From Corticimicrobacter populi (GTDB taxonomy: Bacteria; Pseudomonadota; Gammaproteobacteria; Burkholderiales; Burkholderiaceae_B), in contig NZ_QETA01000009.1 of the NCBI RefSeq assembly GCF_003123725.1, positions 1 through 64,000 of the forward strand: a stretch of 64,000 nucleotides of DNA. The letters run 5' to 3'. Both the position numbers and the translations under genes were made by a program. Below the pieces are notes generated by a model. The model was given only the letters and a program-made list of their open reading frames with translations. It was not told where the DNA came from and made no database searches. This document shows, piece by piece, positions 1-8,560 of this stretch; positions within the stretch are counted from its first letter, which is position 1, and the number at the start of each line of letters is the position of its first letter.

Positions 1-111
1 GAAAGGCCAAAAAAGGCATTGGGCGGATTAACGCCTGCTGCCTATGCTGGCCTTCTGGCAGTAAGAACGAATACATTAACCATCCCGGACTCTAAAGCCT
101 CGCGCTACTGA
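1..111 (+). pseudogene. IS3-family transposase, C-terminal end (5' part outside window)
   Basis: Frame 1 is open from the first base to TGA at 109-111 and encodes 36 residues. They begin ERPKKALGGLTPAAYA, the end of the IS3-family integrase core, where RPxxALGGLTPxxYA closes the DDE domain. The gene continues to the left of the window, so whether the whole transposase is intact cannot be judged. It differs from the second IS3-family element at 5469-6661, whose orfB ends in [10 protein letters not shown], so these are two different insertion sequences at the two ends of the accessory region. Confidence 0.75.
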
Positions 112-544
112 ATACGGGGAGACGTCGCGCTCACGGCTGCGGCTTCCGGTCCCGCCCTTGACACCGCTTTCGACCAAACTGCCTCCACACGTCAGCCTTT
201 TAATGGATGACGGGTCAAGGGGGATTGGTGCGGCCCGCAGCCCGTAGGGCGAGGACACGGCCCCTTGACGCGACGGGAACGACCTTACCCTTGGGACAGG
301 GATGCAGTGGTTCACCCCCTGCATCCCTGCTCCCGGCGAGGGTGGAGAGTCCAGAGAGGCAAAGCCTCTTTGGGAAGTGCCCTCACGGATGGCAGCCAAT
401 AACGCTGTCCATCGGGAAAACCTATTGATAGCCACAAAAACAAGACAATTTCTGCGTGAAACCTTTTTGCCTGTTTTCTCTACAAAACACCAAAAAAATC
501 CCACACCTTGTAAAATATCGTTACCTAAAGCACGGGAGACAACC
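112..544. other. Non-coding stretch between transposase tail and antitoxin gene
   Basis: I find no supportable gene in these 433 bases. The reading frames that cross it on both strands give proline/arginine/serine-rich translations without recognisable domains. The first bases after the transposase stop (about 110-130, GAATACGGGGAGACGTC) may be the right terminal repeat of the IS, but the left end is outside the window, so this cannot be tested here. Composition shifts from GC-rich to AT-rich at about 420. The last part, with TAAAAT at 511-516, may hold the promoter of the following gene, though no good -35 box is seen. Confidence 0.4.
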
Positions 545-769
545 ATGGCTGAGATGGGTTCGCACGAAACGGAACTAACTAAAACGATATCCGGTGCCGA
601 GCGCAACCGGCGTGTAGCGGCCGTCAACTACGCACGCGCATCAGTCGGCTTGGAGGGATTCTCGCTCAGTGCAGCAGATGAAGAACATTCTCAACGGTTC
701 ATCGACGGGAGCATTGACTTAGAAGAATTTGTGCAACCGCGTAGTGCCTTGGCAAGCCCTAAAGCTTAG
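545..769 (+). CDS. VbhA-family (Fic) antitoxin, orphan
   Basis: This 74-residue protein matches the VbhA antitoxin pattern: a short helical stretch with a basic start (AERNRRVAAV, residues 18-27), then ARASVGLEGF, then DGSIDLEEF. Residues S33-V-G-L-E37-G38 fit the (S/T)xxxE(G/N) Fic inhibition motif, in which the glutamate blocks productive ATP binding in a Fic AMP-transferase. The ATG at 545 was chosen because GGGAGA lies 5 bases upstream; the frame is open further upstream but has no similar signal. VbhA proteins normally sit next to a Fic toxin. None is present here; the next gene encodes a 1254-residue protein. It may be a stranded antitoxin, or may act on a Fic protein elsewhere. Family call is by motif only. 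Confidence 0.7.
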   Translation: MAEMGSHETELTKTISGAERNRRVAAVNYARASVGLEGFSLSAADEEHSQRFIDGSIDLEEFVQPRSALASPKA

Positions 770-963
770 TCATGACGAAGAAAATATAGGTGGTTGAAGC
801 TAGTGCAGGATAGGCTGTCGCCGGTATTTGTCATGCATCCAGATCGCGCGCAGTGATTTTTCTCAAAAGTGATGGAAAACGAGCAGTAGCGAGATTAAGA
901 AATTTCAGAAAACCTGCTGCTCAGAAATCATACGACCAACACAAATACAACTGAGGGTGAAGA
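770..963. other. AT-rich intergenic leader of the large island gene
   Basis: No gene is seen in these 194 bases. The end carries GAGGGTGAAG just before the ATG at 964, a usable ribosome binding site. The gap is long for genes in one operon, so the 1254-residue protein may have its own promoter, though no clear -35/-10 pair is visible. Confidence 0.35.
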
Positions 964-3900
964 ATGCAGTGGATTTCGGACGAAGACTTGAAGACTTGGA
1001 GTCGACGCACGGATGCGCGTGAGATTTTCATAGATCTCGTGGGCGACCTGATTCGCGCAACCGTGGGGGATCCCAAGAAATTCAGATTTCCAGGCCAAAG
1101 TGCTGGAACACTTCGCGGCTTTGATGGCGATCTGGAAACAACCGAGGCAATATCAAGAGTACCAGCTAAAGAATCCAAATGGGAATTTGGCACAACACCT
1201 GCCGGTAGGGCAAAAGCGCAGCAAGACTACGACAAGCGGACAGGGGCAACTCCACCGGATGTGATGGCAAGAAACGCTTTTGTCCTAGTCAACCTACATT
1301 CTTGGGACACACCAAGAGAGACACTAGTGAATTGGCTAGATGAGCGAAATGCTGAAGAAAATTGGCGAGAAGTTCATTTTATCGACGGCACCTCACTAGT
1401 CAGCTGGCTTGAGGAAAAGCCGGCAGTCGCAGCCAAATATGCGAGAAACGTTCTTGAAAAATCCCCAAAGAACGGCGCGCTTAGTACAGACGAGTTCTGG
1501 CAGCGATACAGCAGCAGTTTCAAGCCTGCATTAACAGAACAAATGCTGCTGTGTGAACGAGGCGAGGAGGCAGAGCAACTTTTACAAGTGCTTCTAGGGA
1601 ACCCTCAGAATTTCACGCTGGGCGCAGATACGGCTGAAGAAGTTATAGCATTCGCTGTGGCTGTTATTCGAAATGCACCGGACGAAACCCGGAGACTTCT
1701 TGAAAACCGGACTATGATCGTCGAGAGTTTCGAAGCAGCTCAGTTCCTATTAGGAAAAAAAGGCATGAACTTCTTGGTGTGGAAGGGTGCCGATGAACTT
1801 GCAGGCGCACTTGGACAAAAAGGCCCAACGCTGACAGCTGCGACCGGCGTGCAACGAAAGCGGCAAGGTCTTTCTATCCTCAAACGGCCCTCAGCCAGCG
1901 CGATGGCTGAAGCTATGGAGTCAATGGGTATTGACCGGCAAGATGGCTACGAACAGGCCTTTCGATGCGGTCGAAGCCTTACCATTTTCCGTAGGCTGCA
2001 TCCCGCTGCGGGCATTGCCTCTCCTGCTGAATGGGAGCATTTGGCAGCGTCACTGAAGCCCGTACTACTTGCTGGAGCGTGGACTACCGACTCAGCTCTT
2101 GACAAAGATATCATCTCTGGGCTCTCAGGCGGAGCGGACTATAGCACCGTAGAGACTTTAATTCGGCCGACGTTAACTATGTCTGACCCGCCATTCGACA
2201 AGGTCGAACAAGTTTGGCAGATACGAGCTGCTGTAGATGCATTTCCACACTATGGTCACCTTGTCGATGACAGTGATCTTGAGCGTTTTAAGGCGGCTGT
2301 CGTTCGAGTGCTTAGCCATCAAACAGTTGAACCAACTGAAGATGAGAAATTCTCCTTCCGCTATCGGGCACCAGACGATTACAGCGACTGGCTACGTGAC
2401 GGCCTTGCATACACGTTAATGCTATTTGCGGTTATGCCTGAGGTAGGTGGTCTCCAGCTGAATGGTACGACTCCCCAAAGATATGTCGATGAAGTGATTC
2501 GCTCTCTGCCAGGCTTCGCCCAAAGTCATAAATGGATACTTCCACTACTACCTCAACTCTCGATAGTCGCGGAGGCGGCCCCCGTCCCTTTTCTGGAGGC
2601 CCTCGGGAAGAGCCTCGAGGGCCAAGCTAGCGATGCTTTGGGACTATTCCAAGAGCCAAAAGATAATGACTATCTATTTTCGGCAACTAGCCCCCATGTC
2701 TACGTTCTTTGGGCCTTAGAAGTCTTAGCATGGAACCCAGATTATTTATTTTGCACCACAATAATTCTTGGAAAGCTTGCAGCCATCGATCCGGCCAGAG
2801 ATTCGAAAAATGGAAATCGCCCTTTAAATAGTCTTAGAGAAATTTTCTTGCCATGGCTACCAAATACTGACGCCGATCTAAATCAGCGATTTATTGCAAT
2901 CGACGGTTTGATTCGCGATCTGCCGGACGTGGCTTGGAATTTACTTACGCTACTCCTACCGCAAGGACACGAAACAAGTTCACCTACCGCTCGCCCAAAA
3001 CTACGAGACACAACGCCAATTCAGCCTGAGAAAATCACGTTTGGTCTTGTATGGGCAACAGAATCTCGGATTATGGATCGAGTGATAGTTCTTGCCCAGG
3101 GGGACGAGCGCCGCGTCATTTCTCTCGTCAGACATATAGGAAATCTACAACCCACTAATAGGGTGCGTCTAACAAGCCTGATCGCCGATACTTTGGCTGG
3201 TTTCTCTAATTCTGAAGGTAGTGATCTTTGGCATAAACTCAGAGATTACGTAGCACGTCAAGAATCCTTCCCAGACTCTGACTGGTCGCTTAAGGGAGAA
3301 GAGTTGGCTCAGGTCAAAGCGTTACTGACTCAGCACTACCCTTCGGATTTGGTAGCACAGACACGTCATCTATTTGACGACTGGGTCCCGTATGTGGGCA
3401 CAGACGCTAGAAGCTCTCTTGAAAAAGTCGAGTCCGAACGTGCTTCAAGCCTCCTTCACATTTATTCAGAACTTGGCGTCCATGGGATTCTGCGTCTCGC
3501 ACAGACTGTTAAAATGCCAAATCAAATGCGACAGGCATTTTATGCTTTAGAGCTTTCGAACGACGATGCGACAGACCTGATATTCTCTCTTCTAGATATT
3601 GGTGGAGACTGCTATAGCCTCGCCTCAGCACTTTCCGCTAGCTTAAAGCACCGGCATGGCGAAGATTGGCTAAACCACTTTACAACAGTCGTCGCTCCGC
3701 GCTGCAGATCGGAAAAAGAAGTCGCTTGGCTGCTTGCAAACTGGCCGAATGACTCGACCACTTGGCAGTTCGTTGCATCACTAGGACCAGATGTTCAGAA
3801 TTCGTATTGGCGTGACTTTGGCTCTTTACCTCTAAACGCGTCCATCGAGGAAATTCTCAACGCAATCGAAGAGCTTCGACGAGCCAAACGCAGTGTGGTT

Positions 3901-4728
3901 GTACTAAACTCACTCTACAACAATGTAGATAAAGTCAGTTCAAAAACCTTATTATCGTTGCTTGATGATGCTGTTGCAGAGCTTTCGAATGGCAATGGTG
4001 CCTCCTCAGTACTTTCACATTCAATTAGTGAGGTATTTAAGGAGTTGTCAAAAAGAGGCGATTTGGATCTCATAGAAGTTGCTCGACGCGAATTTGTCTA
4101 CCTCCCTCTAATTGAAGACAGTGTGGAGTGCCTCTCCATTCACGCCCTACTTGCACAAAATCCGGCTGAATATGTGGAAATGATTAGGAATGTCTTCGTT
4201 AGCAAAAACGAGGACCGAAACCCAAATCCTTCGGAGGAGGCGCGAACGAGAGCAAGGATGTCGTATCGCCTGCTCAAGTCTTTTCATACCGTCCCTGGTG
4301 ACAAAGAAGGCGTCATTCACGAGCCCACTCTCAGTGCTTGGATTTCAGATGTTCGCAAACAGGCGGCCGAAACTGGACACGAAGGCATCACTGACGAATT
4401 TATCGGTCAACTCCTTGCTCATTCACCGGCGGAAAATGGCACCGGAGCTTGGCCATCAATAGCAGTAGCAACCATCCTAGAGCGAATCGCGTCAGATAGA
4501 GTAGAGCGTGGAATCGAGGTTGAGCGCTTTAATATGCGAGGCGTCTACTCCAAGGGCGCACTTGATGGAGGTGCACAGGAGCGAGAGCTTGCTGATCGCT
4601 ATCGCCAATGGGCACAGCAAGCGACAGCAGCCCGCACCTCAGCAATGTTAGGTAGGATATCTGCGGAGTGGGAACAAAGAGGTAGGCAAGAAGATGTTAA
4701 CGCAGAGAAAAGAAAACTTAAACGATAG
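964..4728 (+). CDS. 1254-aa protein with restriction-endonuclease-like N-terminus, function unknown
   Basis: This is a very large, mostly helical, soluble-looking protein with no signal peptide or membrane segment. Residues about 15-165 look like a restriction-endonuclease-like (Mrr/PD-(D/E)xK type) fold: helix, beta strand KFRFPG, then GFDGD (D54) and SKWEFGT (E74), then KAQQDYDKRT and a strand FVLVNLHSW. The usual lysine of ExK is not in place, so activity is uncertain. I see no Walker A motif in the rest. Residues about 600-700 contain LWALEVLAWNP, AAIDPARDSKNGNRP and LREIFLPWLPNT, which I recall from long bacterial proteins annotated as hypothetical. Codon use is much more AT-rich than the core genes, indicating horizontal origin. 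The position beside a Fic-type antitoxin and between IS elements suggests a defence or conflict role; that is inference. Confidence 0.6.
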   Translation: MQWISDEDLKTWSRRTDAREIFIDLVGDLIRATVGDPKKFRFPGQSAGTLRGFDGDLETTEAISRVPAKESKWEFGTTPAGRAKAQQDYDKRTGATPPDVMARNAFVLVNLHSWDTPRETLVNWLDERNAEENWREVHFIDGTSLVSWLEEKPAVAAKYARNVLEKSPKNGALSTDEFWQRYSSSFKPALTEQMLLCERGEEAEQLLQVLLGNPQNFTLGADTAEEVIAFAVAVIRNAPDETRRLLENRTMIVESFEAAQFLLGKKGMNFLVWKGADELAGALGQKGPTLTAATGVQRKRQGLSILKRPSASAMAEAMESMGIDRQDGYEQAFRCGRSLTIFRRLHPAAGIASPAEWEHLAASLKPVLLAGAWTTDSALDKDIISGLSGGADYSTVETLIRPTLTMSDPPFDKVEQVWQIRAAVDAFPHYGHLVDDSDLERFKAAVVRVLSHQTVEPTEDEKFSFRYRAPDDYSDWLRDGLAYTLMLFAVMPEVGGLQLNGTTPQRYVDEVIRSLPGFAQSHKWILPLLPQLSIVAEAAPVPFLEALGKSLEGQASDALGLFQEPKDNDYLFSATSPHVYVLWALEVLAWNPDYLFCTTIILGKLAAIDPARDSKNGNRPLNSLREIFLPWLPNTDADLNQRFIAIDGLIRDLPDVAWNLLTLLLPQGHETSSPTARPKLRDTTPIQPEKITFGLVWATESRIMDRVIVLAQGDERRVISLVRHIGNLQPTNRVRLTSLIADTLAGFSNSEGSDLWHKLRDYVARQESFPDSDWSLKGEELAQVKALLTQHYPSDLVAQTRHLFDDWVPYVGTDARSSLEKVESERASSLLHIYSELGVHGILRLAQTVKMPNQMRQAFYALELSNDDATDLIFSLLDIGGDCYSLASALSASLKHRHGEDWLNHFTTVVAPRCRSEKEVAWLLANWPNDSTTWQFVASLGPDVQNSYWRDFGSLPLNASIEEILNAIEELRRAKRSVVVLNSLYNNVDKVSSKTLLSLLDDAVAELSNGNGASSVLSHSISEVFKELSKRGDLDLIEVARREFVYLPLIEDSVECLSIHALLAQNPAEYVEMIRNVFVSKNEDRNPNPSEEARTRARMSYRLLKSFHTVPGDKEGVIHEPTLSAWISDVRKQAAETGHEGITDEFIGQLLAHSPAENGTGAWPSIAVATILERIASDRVERGIEVERFNMRGVYSKGALDGGAQERELADRYRQWAQQATAARTSAMLGRISAEWEQRGRQEDVNAEKRKLKR

Positions 4729-4914
4729 GTCACCCGCTACATCCTAAATGCACTTGGGTACTGTACCGAAACTTAGGTACAGTACAGGTACAGCGACCAG
4801 TTTTCACCAATTCAGCTAAAATACGCTAACCTACTGGTTTGAAACTGGTTTTACCTATTCCAACCTACGCTAGAATTCGCTCCATTTCCCTGTAGAAACA
4901 CTGTAAATCACCGA
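4729..4914. other. Right boundary of the accessory island
   Basis: This non-coding stretch lies between the island gene and the shell-gene remnant. It is AT-rich, with a perfect hairpin (4758-4785) and two sets of short direct repeats: ACTGGTTT at 4833-4840 and 4844-4851, and TACGCTA at 4822-4828 and 4866-4872. Similarity to the encapsulin shell begins at about 4915 (codons for LDIHTRV), which places the island/chromosome joint close to 4914. Confidence 0.45.
4758..4785. repeat. Perfect 10-bp inverted repeat
   Basis: GTACTGTACC at 4758-4767 and GGTACAGTAC at 4776-4785 are exact reverse complements separated by 8 bases. Part of the right arm recurs immediately as AGGTACAG (4786-4793). There is no T-run after the stem, so it is a poor intrinsic terminator; a protein-binding or recombination site is possible. 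Confidence 0.6.
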
Positions 4915-5468
4915 CTCGATATCCATACGCGGGTTTCGGATCTCTACAGCAGCCCGCATGACCAAATCAAGGAGCAACTGCGGCTGACCATCGAAACGGT
5001 CAAGGAGCGCCAGGAAAGCGAACTGATCAATAACCCCGACTACGGCCTGCTGGCCAACGTGGCCGAATCACAGCGGGTCTTCCCGCTGACCGGCGCACCC
5101 ACGCCCGATGACCTGGACGAACTGCTGACCAAGGTCTGGAAAGAGCCTGCGTTTTTCCTGGCGCATCCGCTGGCCATCGCCGCCTTTGGTCGCGAATGTA
5201 CCCGACGCGGCGTGCCGCTGATTCCGTCCGACAAGATACCGGTCGTCGATGGCAAGTCCTCGATCCTGCTGTTGCGCGTGGGTGATCGCCGCCAGGGCGT
5301 GATCGGCCTGTTCCAGCCCGGTGTGGCCGGAGAGCAGGGGCCGGGGCTGTCGGTGCGCTTCATGGGCATCAACCGCAACGCCATCGCCTCCTACCTGATT
5401 TCGCTGTACTGCTCGCTGGCCGTGCTGTCCGACGACGCGCTGGCGGTTCTTGAAGACGTTGAAGTGGG
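4915..5468 (+). pseudogene. Family 2A encapsulin shell protein (SrpI-like), broken
   Basis: The frame from 4915 reads LDIHTRVSDLYSSPHDQ, then RLTIETVKERQESELINN, GAPTPDDLDELL, FFLAHPLAIAAFGRECTRR, LIPSDK, GLSVRFMGIN and SLYCSLAVL. These are signature segments of the family 2A (SrpI-type, HK97-fold) encapsulin shell. Three lesions are visible. The first third (roughly 100 residues) is missing where the island joins. The segment between RECTRRGVP and LIPSDK is absent; from memory of the family about 18-20 residues with a second RG(V/I)P belong there. The 3' end is interrupted by an IS element after GAAGTGGG. The GTG at 5059 could start a fragment but not a full shell. The next intact gene is the cysteine desulfurase cargo, which confirms the system type. 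A working shell from this copy is very unlikely. Confidence 0.85.
5465..5468. repeat. Target-site duplication TGGG, left copy
   Basis: TGGG directly precedes the left inverted repeat of the IS element and recurs directly after the right one (6662-6665). A 4-bp duplication is within the range of IS3-family transposition and fixes the insertion point. Confidence 0.75.
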
Positions 5469-5532
5469 GGTAATCCCCCCGAAAAAGCGGTGAGATCAGA
5501 AGTAGAATTTTCTCATTGAGGAGTTCTACAGC

Positions 5533-5799
5533 ATGAAGAAGTCACGATTCACAGACAGCCAGATTCTGGACGCGATCAAGCGCGTGGAAGCGGGCATCAC
5601 GGTACCCGAGATGTGCCGAGAGCTGGGCATCAGTTCAGCGACGTTCTACAAGTGGCGGGCAAAGTACGGCGGCATGGACGTGTCGATGATGTCACGGATG
5701 AAGGAATTGGAGGCGGAGAATGCCCGGCTGCGCAAGATGTACGTCGAGGAGAAACTCAAGGCCGAGCTGCGCGCGGAGGCTCTCGAAAAAAAGTGGTGA
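5533..5799 (+). CDS. IS3-family transposase OrfA (helix-turn-helix)
   Basis: This 88-residue protein is the DNA-binding part of the transposase. It starts [21 protein letters not shown], continues with a helix-turn-helix ([22 protein letters not shown], about residues 25-46), and ends in a charged leucine-zipper-like helix ([19 protein letters not shown]). GAGGAG lies upstream of the ATG. The run A7 at 5786-5792 followed by G provides the slippery heptamer A-AAA-AAG in the orfA frame, where a -1 shift would produce the OrfAB fusion that catalyses transposition. Confidence 0.9.
5786..5793 (+). promoter_or_regulatory. Programmed -1 frameshift site (A7G)
   Basis: AAAAAAAG lies six codons or fewer before the orfA stop. 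The orfA frame reads A-AAA-AAG, the canonical slippery heptamer, and orfB lies in the -1 frame, so slippage joins them. Confidence 0.75.
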
Positions 5800-6620
5800 A
5801 ACCATCTCGCTGCCACGAGATGGCTCAACACGTAGTGCGGGAGCGCGGGATCTCGGTCCGTTTGGCCTGTGAGACGTTTGGCATCAGCCAGACCTGCTAT
5901 CGCTATGAAGGCAAGCACCGGACTGAGAATGATGAGATTGCCCAGTGGCTGCTGCGCCTGACGGACAACCATCGTAACTGGGGATTTGGGCTGTGCTATC
6001 TGTATCTACGCAATTTGAAGGGGTTCGGCTGGAATCACAAACGGGTCTACCGCATCTATCGGGAGTTGGAATTGAACCTGCGGATCAAGCCACGCAAACG
6101 CCTGGTGCGCCAAGTGCCTGAGCCGCTGACGGTGCCCATGGCCATAAACCACGTTTGGTCGATGGACTTCATGCATGACCAATTGACTGATGGACGTAGC
6201 ATCCGACTGTTCAATGTGATCGACGACTTTAACCGCGAGGCACTGGGCATAGAAGTCGACTTCTCCTTGCCCTCGGAGCGGGTTATCCGTGCGTTAAAAC
6301 AGATCATTGCCTGGCGTGGCAAGCCCTTGGCGATTCGTTGTGACAATGGTCCGGAATACCTCAGTTCAGCAATCACCGAATGGGCGCGCCAGTGGGATAT
6401 CAAATTGGAGTATATCCAACCAGGCAAGCCACAACAGAATGCCTACATCGAGCGGTTCAACCGGACGGTGCGCTACGAGTGGCTGTCCCAATATCACTGG
6501 GAAGATCTGGATCAGGTCCAGCGTGCAGCGACAGAATGGATGTGGTCTTACAATCATGAACGCCCAAACATGGCTCTGGGCGGATATACCCCTAAACAGC
6601 GGCTGGCCATGACCGCATAG
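5796..6620 (+). CDS. IS3-family transposase OrfB (DDE integrase)
   Basis: This is the catalytic part of the transposase, about 274 residues from the GTG at 5796 that overlaps the orfA stop. The reading frame is open further upstream, but that part is antisense-like to orfA and is reached only by frameshift. Order: HTH-like N-terminus ([18 protein letters not shown]), HTH_21-type segment ([15 protein letters not shown]), then the rve integrase core with [19 protein letters not shown] and NAYIERFNR supplying D, D and E, and the C-terminal [15 protein letters not shown]. In vivo it is probably made mainly as an OrfAB fusion by -1 frameshifting at 5786-5793. No stop or frame damage is seen. Confidence 0.9.
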
Positions 6621-6661: not shown

Positions 6662-6699
6662 TGGGTAAGTACCATGAGTACCCCGACACCTACCGTTGA
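6662..6699 (+). pseudogene. Severed 3' end of the encapsulin shell gene
   Basis: If the IS and one TGGG are removed, the shell frame continues ...GAA GTG GGT AAG TAC CAT GAG TAC CCC GAC ACC TAC CGT TGA, ending [14 protein letters not shown]. The restored shell stop (6697-6699) would overlap the cargo gene's ATG at 6674 by 26 bases, implying translational coupling of shell and cargo before the insertion. Confidence 0.7.
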
Positions 6700-8560
6700 G
6701 CGGCCGCTGCAGGCCACTCCGCCCATCGGCGAGCAGGCCCTGGCGCAACTGGCCAACGCCCTGTTCGCGGCCTTGCCAGGCCAGAGCGGCGAAGCCATTG
6801 CCGCTCTGGCCGGACACCGACCGGACCAGCCCGAGGCGCTGCACCCTGTCCTGGCCCCGACCTCGACGCCCGGCACTCATACCGGCATCACCACGGCGAC
6901 AGGCGCAGGCAACCCGCACCCTTCGACCACACCGGCCCCCGGTATCAACGGGACGCTGCTGCAACCCGACGCAGTGGCCCTGGGGCGTGGCGGCATCGGC
7001 TACCTGGATCACGCCGGCCCGCATGCCATCCCGGCTCCCGTAGTGGACCACCCCTACTCGCCGACCTCCAGCACGCCCTACTACTTTCAGAAGGAAGGGG
7101 GCTGGCCCGTACCGGCGGCGGGCGCACCGCTGCCATCCTCGTTGCCAGGCGTGCCTGATCTGGAGCGGGAGGCCCCTCGCAGCACCGCGCCGTCGCCGTA
7201 TTACTTTGTGGATGCACAGCAGCCGGGCACGCGTGCGGCTTCTTCCGTACCCGTGACGCATCCGGCAGCCCCACAGAGGAGCAGCCCGTCGCCTGCCATC
7301 TCACCTGCCACCACGCCTGCTGCGACATCCCACAACCACGGCACCCTCGGTGCCTACGAACTGCATGCCCTGCGACGCGACTTTCCCATTCTGCAGGAAA
7401 CCGTCAACGGCAAGCCGCTGATCTGGCTGGACAACGCGGCCACCACCCACAAGCCCCAGGCCGTGATCGACAGGCTGGCCTGGTTCTACACCCACGAAAA
7501 CTCCAACATCCACCGTGCGGCGCACGCGCTGGCCGCACGCGCCACCGACGCCTATGAAGCAGCCCGCGAAAAGGCGGCCCGTTTTCTGGGTGCGGCCTCG
7601 CCCGACGAGATCGTATTCGTGCGCGGAGCCACCGAAGGCATCAATCTGCTGGCCCGCACCTGGGGAGCCCAACAGGTGGGAGAAGGCGACGAGATCATCG
7701 TTTCGCACCTGGAGCATCATGCCAACATCGTGCCCTGGCAACAGCTTGCCGCCGACAAGGGCGCACGCCTGCGCGTGATTCCGGTCGACGACGACGGCCA
7801 GGTCCGGCTTGATGCCTTCCGCGCCCTGCTGTCGCCCCGCACCAAGGTCGTGTCGATCACGCAGGTGTCGAACGCGCTGGGCACGGTAGTGCCGGTCGAT
7901 GCCATCATCCGGATTGCCCATGCGGCCGGCGTCAAGGTCATCGTGGACGGTGCGCAATCGGTGGCCCACATGCGGGTGAACGTACAGGCGCTGGATGCCG
8001 ACTTCTTCGTGTTTTCCGGGCACAAGGTCTTCGGCCCCACAGGGATCGGGGTGGTCTACGGCAAGAAGGCGCTGCTCGACAATCTGCCGCCCTGGCAGGG
8101 CGGCGGCAACATGATCGCCGACGTGACCTTCGAGCATACGCAATATCAGCCCGCGCCGGCCCGCTTCGAGGCAGGCACCGGCAATATCGCGGATGCCGTG
8201 GGCCTGGGTGCCGCCTTCGACTACCTGGATCGCTACGGCATCGACACGCTCGGTGCCTACGAACATGGCCTGCTCGAATACGCCACTGCAGGACTCTCGA
8301 CGATCCCCGGCCTGCGCCTGATCGGCACCGCCGCCCACAAGGCCAGCGTGCTGTCGTTCGTGCTGGAAGGTCTCTCGACCCAGGAAGTAGGCGTGGCACT
8401 GAACCGCGAAGGCATCGCCGTACGCTCGGGCCACCACTGCGCGCAACCCATCCTGCGCCGCTTCGGCGTGGAAAGCACGGTGCGCCCCTCGCTGGCGTTC
8501 TACAACACCCGCGAGGAAATCGACACGCTGGTGCAGGCGCTGCAAAATCTGAAGCGCTGA
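6674..8560 (+). CDS. Cysteine desulfurase, family 2A encapsulin cargo
   Basis: A PLP-dependent SufS-type cysteine desulfurase that releases persulfide sulfur from L-cysteine. Residues about 225-628 form the class V aminotransferase fold: [43 protein letters not shown], the PLP lysine K451 in [12 protein letters not shown], and the catalytic C589 in [10 protein letters not shown]. Residues 1-222 are a low-complexity Pro/Ala/Thr-rich extension with conserved-looking islands ([20 protein letters not shown], about 97-116) and two related blocks, TPYYFQ (134-139) and SPYYFV (174-179). Such an extension is the cargo-loading domain of family 2A encapsulin cargo enzymes. The catalytic residues are intact although the shell gene upstream is broken, so the enzyme may now work unencapsulated. 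Its former promoter lay upstream of the shell gene; expression now depends on the IS or island. Confidence 0.92.

Follow-up and report, generated by a model that had tools for sequence, protein, structure and literature searches.

A probable sensor-nuclease gene as exchangeable cargo on a conjugation-island remnant, beside a PromA-type oriT and an orphan vbhA-like antitoxin gene

Antitoxins of the VbhA type carry the inhibition motif [S/T]xxxE[G/N], and Avs proteins share a general architecture of N-terminal effector, STAND core and large C-terminal sensor. In conjugation of the RP4 polarity, the transferred strand begins at nic. Among PromA plasmids, pSB102, pIPO2 and pTer331 have had their oriT regions aligned with that of the IncU plasmid RA3 (PMC4175270). 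Here we describe a locus of Corticimicrobacter populi that bears likenesses to all three kinds of system. It lies at the left end of a 64,000-nucleotide stretch of contig NZ_QETA01000009.1 (the window; G000:C17:1-64000), where a vbhA-like gene, a PromA-type oriT core and the gene of a large protein, P0002, follow one another (Table 1). P0002 is probably an exchangeable cargo of a conjugation-island remnant and a one-gene anti-phage sensor-nuclease, with vbhA as an orphan antitoxin beside the oriT.

The carrier occurs twice in this genome, each time with other cargo. A DNA search of the assembly found window positions 129-830, which hold plasmid-type repeats, vbhA and the oriT, again at C10:325410-326137 (86% identity), with a second vbhA. 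There the left module leads into a Hachiman system, HamA-HamB (PADLOC 7.8e-133 and 1.1e-197), and relaxase, NikA/MobC-like, VirB5 and VirB6 genes lie to its left. Because both this left module and the right end recur around Hachiman within one genome, we read the two loci as one carrier with exchangeable cargo, which in the window interrupts an encapsulin gene. Hachiman thus fills the slot of P0002 in the second copy, whereas its proteins are unrelated to P0002 by family assignment. The surrounding region, C10:318000-337000, can be viewed as that second carrier copy with relaxase, VirB5/VirB6 and Hachiman system together. The left module is rare: 4 of 399 genomes of the order match it, and the 3 besides our own do so over only about 40 bases each.

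The right end is found in two other genomes among the 399, G325 and G267, and had no match in plasmids. In G267 it directly adjoins the PADLOC candidate pair PDC-M05A/B (3.2e-86 and 3.7e-65). The gene nearest to it in G325 (542 amino acids) is without a match; the next genes, within a few kilobases, give partial PADLOC matches (PDC-S60, 2.3e-25, positions 4-186 of 906; PDC-M36A, 7.5e-12), with genes for an HNH protein, a Schlafen-type helicase and VirB6 beyond them on the left. On contig C1 of our own genome, the 180-residue protein adjoining the right end matches no family. In C10, G325 and G267 the right end runs into a shared core, ACTCAAAATCCCCCG; in the window a similar ACTCGATATCC leads straight into the encapsulin gene, and the insertion there would, judging from these junctions, occupy a secondary site. 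ARAGORN found no complete tRNA at the right ends (L132, L133, L041, L134 and L042). At one of them, L132, a tRNA-like 3' tail follows the right end, as seen by eye only. We take positions 128-4914 for what would be the right-hand side of an island, conjugative or mobilisable, that has an oriT of PromA type; P0002 would be an independent cargo lying between oriT and right end.

The oriT core carries a nic-like site whose cleavage point we presume from RP4-type oriTs. Positions 761-828 align to intergenic DNA directly upstream of mobC in three PromA-like plasmids. In pSB102, pTer331 and AJ297913, the last of which we take to be pIPO2, the matching positions coincide with oriT regions given in PMC4175270 (legend of Figure 7), so that both the conserved core and the nic site fall at published coordinates. 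The pSB102 counterpart of mobC is annotated as hypothetical and is named a MobC homologue in the same paper. The window thus shares core sequence and nic-like site with the PromA oriT regions and differs from them in placement, its oriT lying between vbhA and the cargo rather than straight before mobC. The repeats to the left of vbhA also have counterparts in the three PromA-like plasmids, in a comparison that covered 50,000 of the 55,578 bases of pSB102. Repeats 128-175 and 287-374 are intergenic and unannotated there, with several per plasmid, and no known RNA family was detected in them at gathering thresholds in the window and in L031.

With RP4-type polarity and the nic-like site at position 805 on the minus strand, the transferred strand would run to the left, so that vbhA would be first into the recipient and P0002 last; the transferred strand would be the template for vbhA. 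PMC11541004 reports that leading regions hold orphan antitoxins and that the transferred strand encodes toxin-antitoxin genes, and PMC5675462 suggests anti-addiction roles for the orphan antitoxins of pVbh. On the side expected to arrive in the recipient first, vbhA could act against the Fic toxins of elements that are resident there or compete with the island.

The 74-residue product of vbhA scores 39.5 bits against the Pfam VbhA family (cut-off 25.9). It shares with the class I Fic antitoxins of VbhA/FicTA the family match and the full inhibition motif, with S33, E37 and G38 all there and unchanged in the C10 copy, and differs from them in having no Fic partner. An earlier note on this DNA had described exactly such a protein, with complete motif and no Fic toxin encoded, and both points hold: the island contains no Fic gene, and the two Fic matches of the assembly lie on contigs C1 and C10. 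No cognate Fic gene adjoins the window vbhA, whose left flank is ended by the contig end. Against phage records the protein gave no match. Among the 399 genomes we found 13 VbhA loci above cut-off, 9 of them with an adjoining Fic-like gene or fragment (5 called by motif and 4 by eye, 2 of these 4 being fragments); the loci without a Fic neighbour are L052, L054 and the two copies of our own genome. In L054 (G225:C2, 1456-2168), the VbhA-family gene overlaps a zeta-toxin-like kinase gene with no Fic there, by eye, possibly a mixed toxin-antitoxin pair. Three plasmids, of Variovorax, Xanthomonas and Acidovorax (L033, L034 and L037), carry VbhA genes without annotated Fic near partition genes, and in L033 and L034 the VbhA gene adjoins a NotI-type restriction-modification pair.

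The earlier note had suggested that the two genes could make up a unit, for defence or of the toxin-antitoxin kind. In such a unit, the VbhA-like protein would hold the nuclease in check. The two genes do share a strand, only 194 bp lie between them and the inhibition motif is intact. In the co-occurrence search, however, VbhA adjoins the large gene in 0 of 21 other cases, each a genome or record with a relative of P0002, the outcome that the earlier note had itself named as contrary to its proposal. This VbhA family search took in 22 genomes or records (16 genomes of the order, our own included, Massilia soli, Cupriavidus campinensis and 4 of 22 plasmid records, L004-L007); about 20 of the 21 count as independent, since G354 and the L002 genome appear to be one and the same. 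Any VbhA at all occurred only in our own genome and in G138, where 86 kb separate it from the large gene and it adjoins a Fic gene of its own. The other copy of the vbhA module leads into Hachiman instead, an oriT-like sequence separates vbhA from P0002, and 6 of 16 relatives of P0002 have their own fused helix-turn-helix (HTH) domain. We therefore reject the two-gene unit as extremely improbable; most likely vbhA and P0002 are not a working pair and stand together by accident of position on a mobile carrier. The note's other suggestion, a remnant of a Fic module, came close; a more fitting description of the remnant is that end of a conjugative element which holds vbhA and the oriT.

P0002 itself is a real open reading frame (ORF), with three full-length homologues at 65-68% identity; nonsynonymous divergence from them is 0.23-0.25, and synonymous divergence is beyond the range of the method. 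One scan of genome contigs gave close relatives in Massilia soli (68%) and Cupriavidus campinensis (66%). Relatives were found in 22 plasmid records, in 16 of the 399 genomes of the order (our own included) and on viral contigs. In E. coli, a P0002-like type (that of L095) matched in 204 of 5,426 genomes, 125 of them with at least 80% of the gene, and the copy inspected lies by an ssrA integrase site. Divergently beside the E. coli-type relative, L095 (626-4474) and L128 (2682-6533) each encode an unnamed protein some 1,283 residues long. The E. coli and plasmid relatives are annotated mostly as hypothetical or as HTH regulators.

By its sequence P0002 belongs to an unnamed family. It matched no Pfam, PADLOC or NCBIfam model at E values up to 1, and the PADLOC matches among 16 aligned relatives look like those of HTH-type models. 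Phage records gave one partial match (residues 19-202, 28%), and solved structures gave only chance-level matches by sequence. The best-ranked titles and abstracts of the open-licence literature held no published description of the family, and an earlier one is possible. A Gifsy prophage protein, considered as a described relative, was rejected as a P-loop ATPase of another kind, going by the account of it in PMC12724215.

We next turn to the predicted fold. An AlphaFold2 model of residues 1-480, built from 11 sequences, reached a predicted local distance difference test (pLDDT) score of 88.7 and a predicted template modelling (pTM) score of 0.85. Foldseek against the PDB placed Avs3 and Avs4 on top, with the only three E values at or below 0.001 (2.0e-4, 3.8e-4 and 6.8e-4), followed by Dark, CED-4, Apaf-1 and SAMD9. 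VIA-align, which re-aligns only Foldseek's own matches, paired residues 1-165 of the predicted model with LlaBIII (Z 8.4, root-mean-square deviation 4.0, 135 aligned), MspJI (8.1), FokI (8.0) and also AspBHI. Up to about residue 452 it gave CED-4 (Z 8.4, 262 aligned), NRC4 (8.3), Dark (8.2) and EfAvs5 (7.8), a STAND/NB-ARC-like fold on the predicted model, by a remote match. We accept this reading because the Foldseek and VIA-align lists agree and the domain order fits. The restriction-endonuclease-like N-terminus that had been proposed for the 1,254-residue protein is thereby borne out at the level of predicted fold. The model of residues 335-1254 is a helical solenoid (pLDDT 84.0, pTM 0.64) that matches general HEAT/importin-type solenoids with Z up to 9.4; these matches may reflect merely a common arrangement of helical repeats, and we claim no specific sensor fold.

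A 16-member alignment (A3) adds two features. D54, G55, W73, E74, G76, K84, A85 and D88 are invariant, and the Walker A motif (GK[ST]) is absent in 16 of 16 from its expected P-loop place after the first core strand; Walker-A-like patterns occur elsewhere in 6 of 23 rows. P0002 is like the Avs STAND NTPases in its top structural matches and in its predicted order of effector, core and sensor, and unlike them in lacking Walker A at the P-loop position, as do all 16 members examined, and in matching no Pfam, PADLOC or NCBIfam model. Its predicted build would recall the immune receptors of animals and plants, minus their customary ATP-binding motif.

The shared scaffold is combined with different N-termini. 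Relatives on viral contigs (L080, L083 and L084; 1,180 amino acids) match P0002 over residues 352-1223 or so only and have another nuclease-like N-terminus, which to us presumably resembles DUF4297; L080 and L083 gave no Pfam match over cut-offs, and in the L080 type, present in 8 of the 5,426 E. coli genomes, no counterpart of the STAND core was detected before about residue 355. The relative in L085 is without a nuclease-like N-terminus, and the gene directly upstream encodes a HetE-N protein (PF20701, 5.6e-33). The facing ends of these two proteins (L085, 5567-8697) carry the similar motifs THSG-G-NI and NHSG-G-NI, of a type that we take to resemble the motifs of amyloid-signalling receptor-effector pairs. 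L085 thus looks like the HetE-N or amyloid-motif pairs of receptors akin to nucleotide-binding leucine-rich repeat proteins (NLR-like), with matching motifs at facing ends, whereas the effector of P0002 is fused, and only one HetE-N locus was seen. A wider reading, that P0002 stands for a broad NLR-like immune family working without ATP, with exchangeable effectors including a separate HetE-N one recruited by a matching amyloid-like motif, is tentative and on present evidence doubtful; if true, it would mean antiviral NLR-type signalling without nucleotide switching.

The neighbourhoods of some relatives point towards mobile elements and defence. By eye, such relatives stand among restriction-modification genes (HsdM/HsdS in L071, HsdR in L072) and near a reverse transcriptase (RT)-like gene (L074), and some lie near integrases, again by eye, or near annotated tail-fibre and integrase genes. 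We favour a defence role on evidence from the carrier, which elsewhere holds Hachiman and whose right end adjoins a PADLOC pair in G267, with weaker partial matches nearby in G325 and none on C1. Further evidence comes from the top Avs fold matches, the varied N-termini on a shared scaffold, the restriction-modification, RT-like, integrase and tail-fibre neighbours and the fused HTH_3 domains, N-terminal in their 6 members. The possible defence role raised by the earlier note accordingly gains support from predicted fold and context rather than from experiment. We infer that the helical C-terminus of P0002 would sense an infection signal, that the Walker-A-less STAND-like core would relay it through assembly or rearrangement, and that the N-terminal nuclease would then cut DNA and stop infection.

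An anti-plasmid or inter-element conflict protein, that is, an incompatibility or exclusion weapon of a mobile element, would also suit a gene beside an oriT, and of the plasmid records in which relatives occur, 11 of 22 are classed as conjugative. We consider this unlikely, since relatives are also carried by viral contigs and found close to genes for tail fibres or integrases, and the closest folds are phage-binding Avs proteins.

Several observations weigh against a one-gene sensor-nuclease beside a functional antitoxin gene. The first nine Foldseek rows have low TM-scores, 0.22-0.33 by query length, VIA-align Z values of about 8 are middling by the tool's own note, and AAA+ proteins such as ClpC1 and ClpA tie at Z 8.0 on residues 170-352, although these AAA+ matches span fewer residues (about 160-169) than the NLR-type ones (225-278). 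All 8 E. coli copies among the matches listed are interrupted by IS3. PADLOC families numbered 297 among 88 neighbours and 73 among 89 controls, a comparison that is not clean and gives no measure of enrichment, with redundant families, mechanically called ORFs and several control regions on the relatives' own contigs; the neighbours were the nearest ORFs of at least 140 residues at 24 loci (L087 and L090 left out, a wider list of 178 unused), and one of the 90 controls listed, L123's longest ORF, was set aside. The two vbhA copies are 91.6% identical, with 8 synonymous and 11 nonsynonymous nucleotide differences, whereas their non-coding flanks are 95.8% (333-544) and 98.2% (770-826) identical; constraint on the protein may thus be weak, and vbhA may be decaying. 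Finally, where a lysine commonly stands, two residues beyond the catalytic glutamate, 16 of 16 members have an invariant glycine, residue 76; that K84 substitutes for the lysine is a guess. This glycine, with the HTH fused in 6 of 16 members, would suit a non-defence role such as HTH-linked transcriptional control of mobile elements with an inactive nuclease domain. Such a role is in our view very unlikely, given the invariance of D54, E74 and K84 and the exchange of effector-like N-termini among scaffold relatives.

The borders of the island agree in part with what had been described. Its AT-rich character is confirmed, with a GC content of 48-52% across window positions 1-5000 and 57-68% in the following kilobases. 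Insertion sequence (IS) DNA does lie on both sides, as the earlier note had it, but on the left it sits at the contig end, position 1, beyond which the flank is unreadable, and on the right the island edge is formed by the remains of an encapsulin gene, truncated and starting at about 4915, beyond which the IS follows. The encapsulin pseudogene, whose codon losses were counted against the 309-codon copy of L110, is cut by the island on its left and by the IS on its right. Among 101 genomes of the family, an SrpI-like gene without visible break was seen in 3, none of them our own, and a search of our own genome for a further encapsulin piece found none. A cysteine-desulfurase-like gene at 6674-8560, after the IS, is still open.

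Table 1. Positions of the features discussed, numbered from the first letter of the window
Feature	Position	Strand	Evidence or remark
IS3-family transposase gene, 3' tail, at contig end	1-127	+	blastn 71-74% to IS1404, IS1403 and ISCte3
Non-coding carrier repeats	128-400	+	in three PromA-like plasmids, 5-6 copies per plasmid of part 128-175 and 3-5 of part 287-374; C10 copy
vbhA-like orphan antitoxin gene, 74 amino acids, motif S33-VGL-E37-G38	545-769	+	PF18495, E 5.6e-10; second copy in same genome
PromA-type oriT core	761-828		nic-like GCAGGATA at 805-812, which is TATCCTG/C on the minus strand (slash, presumed cleavage point)
P0002, 1,254-residue single-gene cargo	964-4728	+	full-length homologues
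Restriction-endonuclease-like domain (predicted), P0002 residues 1-165	964-1458	+	AlphaFold2 pLDDT 88.7; VIA-align Z 7.7-8.4; invariant D54, E74, K84
STAND/NB-ARC-like module (predicted) without Walker A, P0002 residues 168-452	1465-2319	+	Foldseek: Avs3, Avs4, then Dark, CED-4, Apaf-1
All-helical solenoid (predicted), putative sensor, P0002 residues 453-1254	2320-4725	+	AlphaFold2 model of residues 335-1254
Conserved right end of carrier element	4760-4914		91% to C10:329649-329803 after HamB; 76% G325; 70% G267; 79% over about 60 bp at C1:822851
Encapsulin (SrpI-like) pseudogene	4915-5493	+	about 96 first codons gone, about 18 codons deleted inside, 3' end replaced before IS
Transposase ORFs with rve and HTH_21 domains	about 5533-6620	+	IS3 type is our own reading

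The locus clearly exemplifies how a single conjugative carrier exchanges its defence cargo next to an oriT that retains an orphan antitoxin. If our reading of P0002 as a sensor-nuclease is right, the family would offer a testable single-gene defence, NLR-like minus the nucleotide switch, in 204 of 5,426 E. coli genomes and 22 plasmid records, and would reveal how much of the STAND scheme is dispensable.

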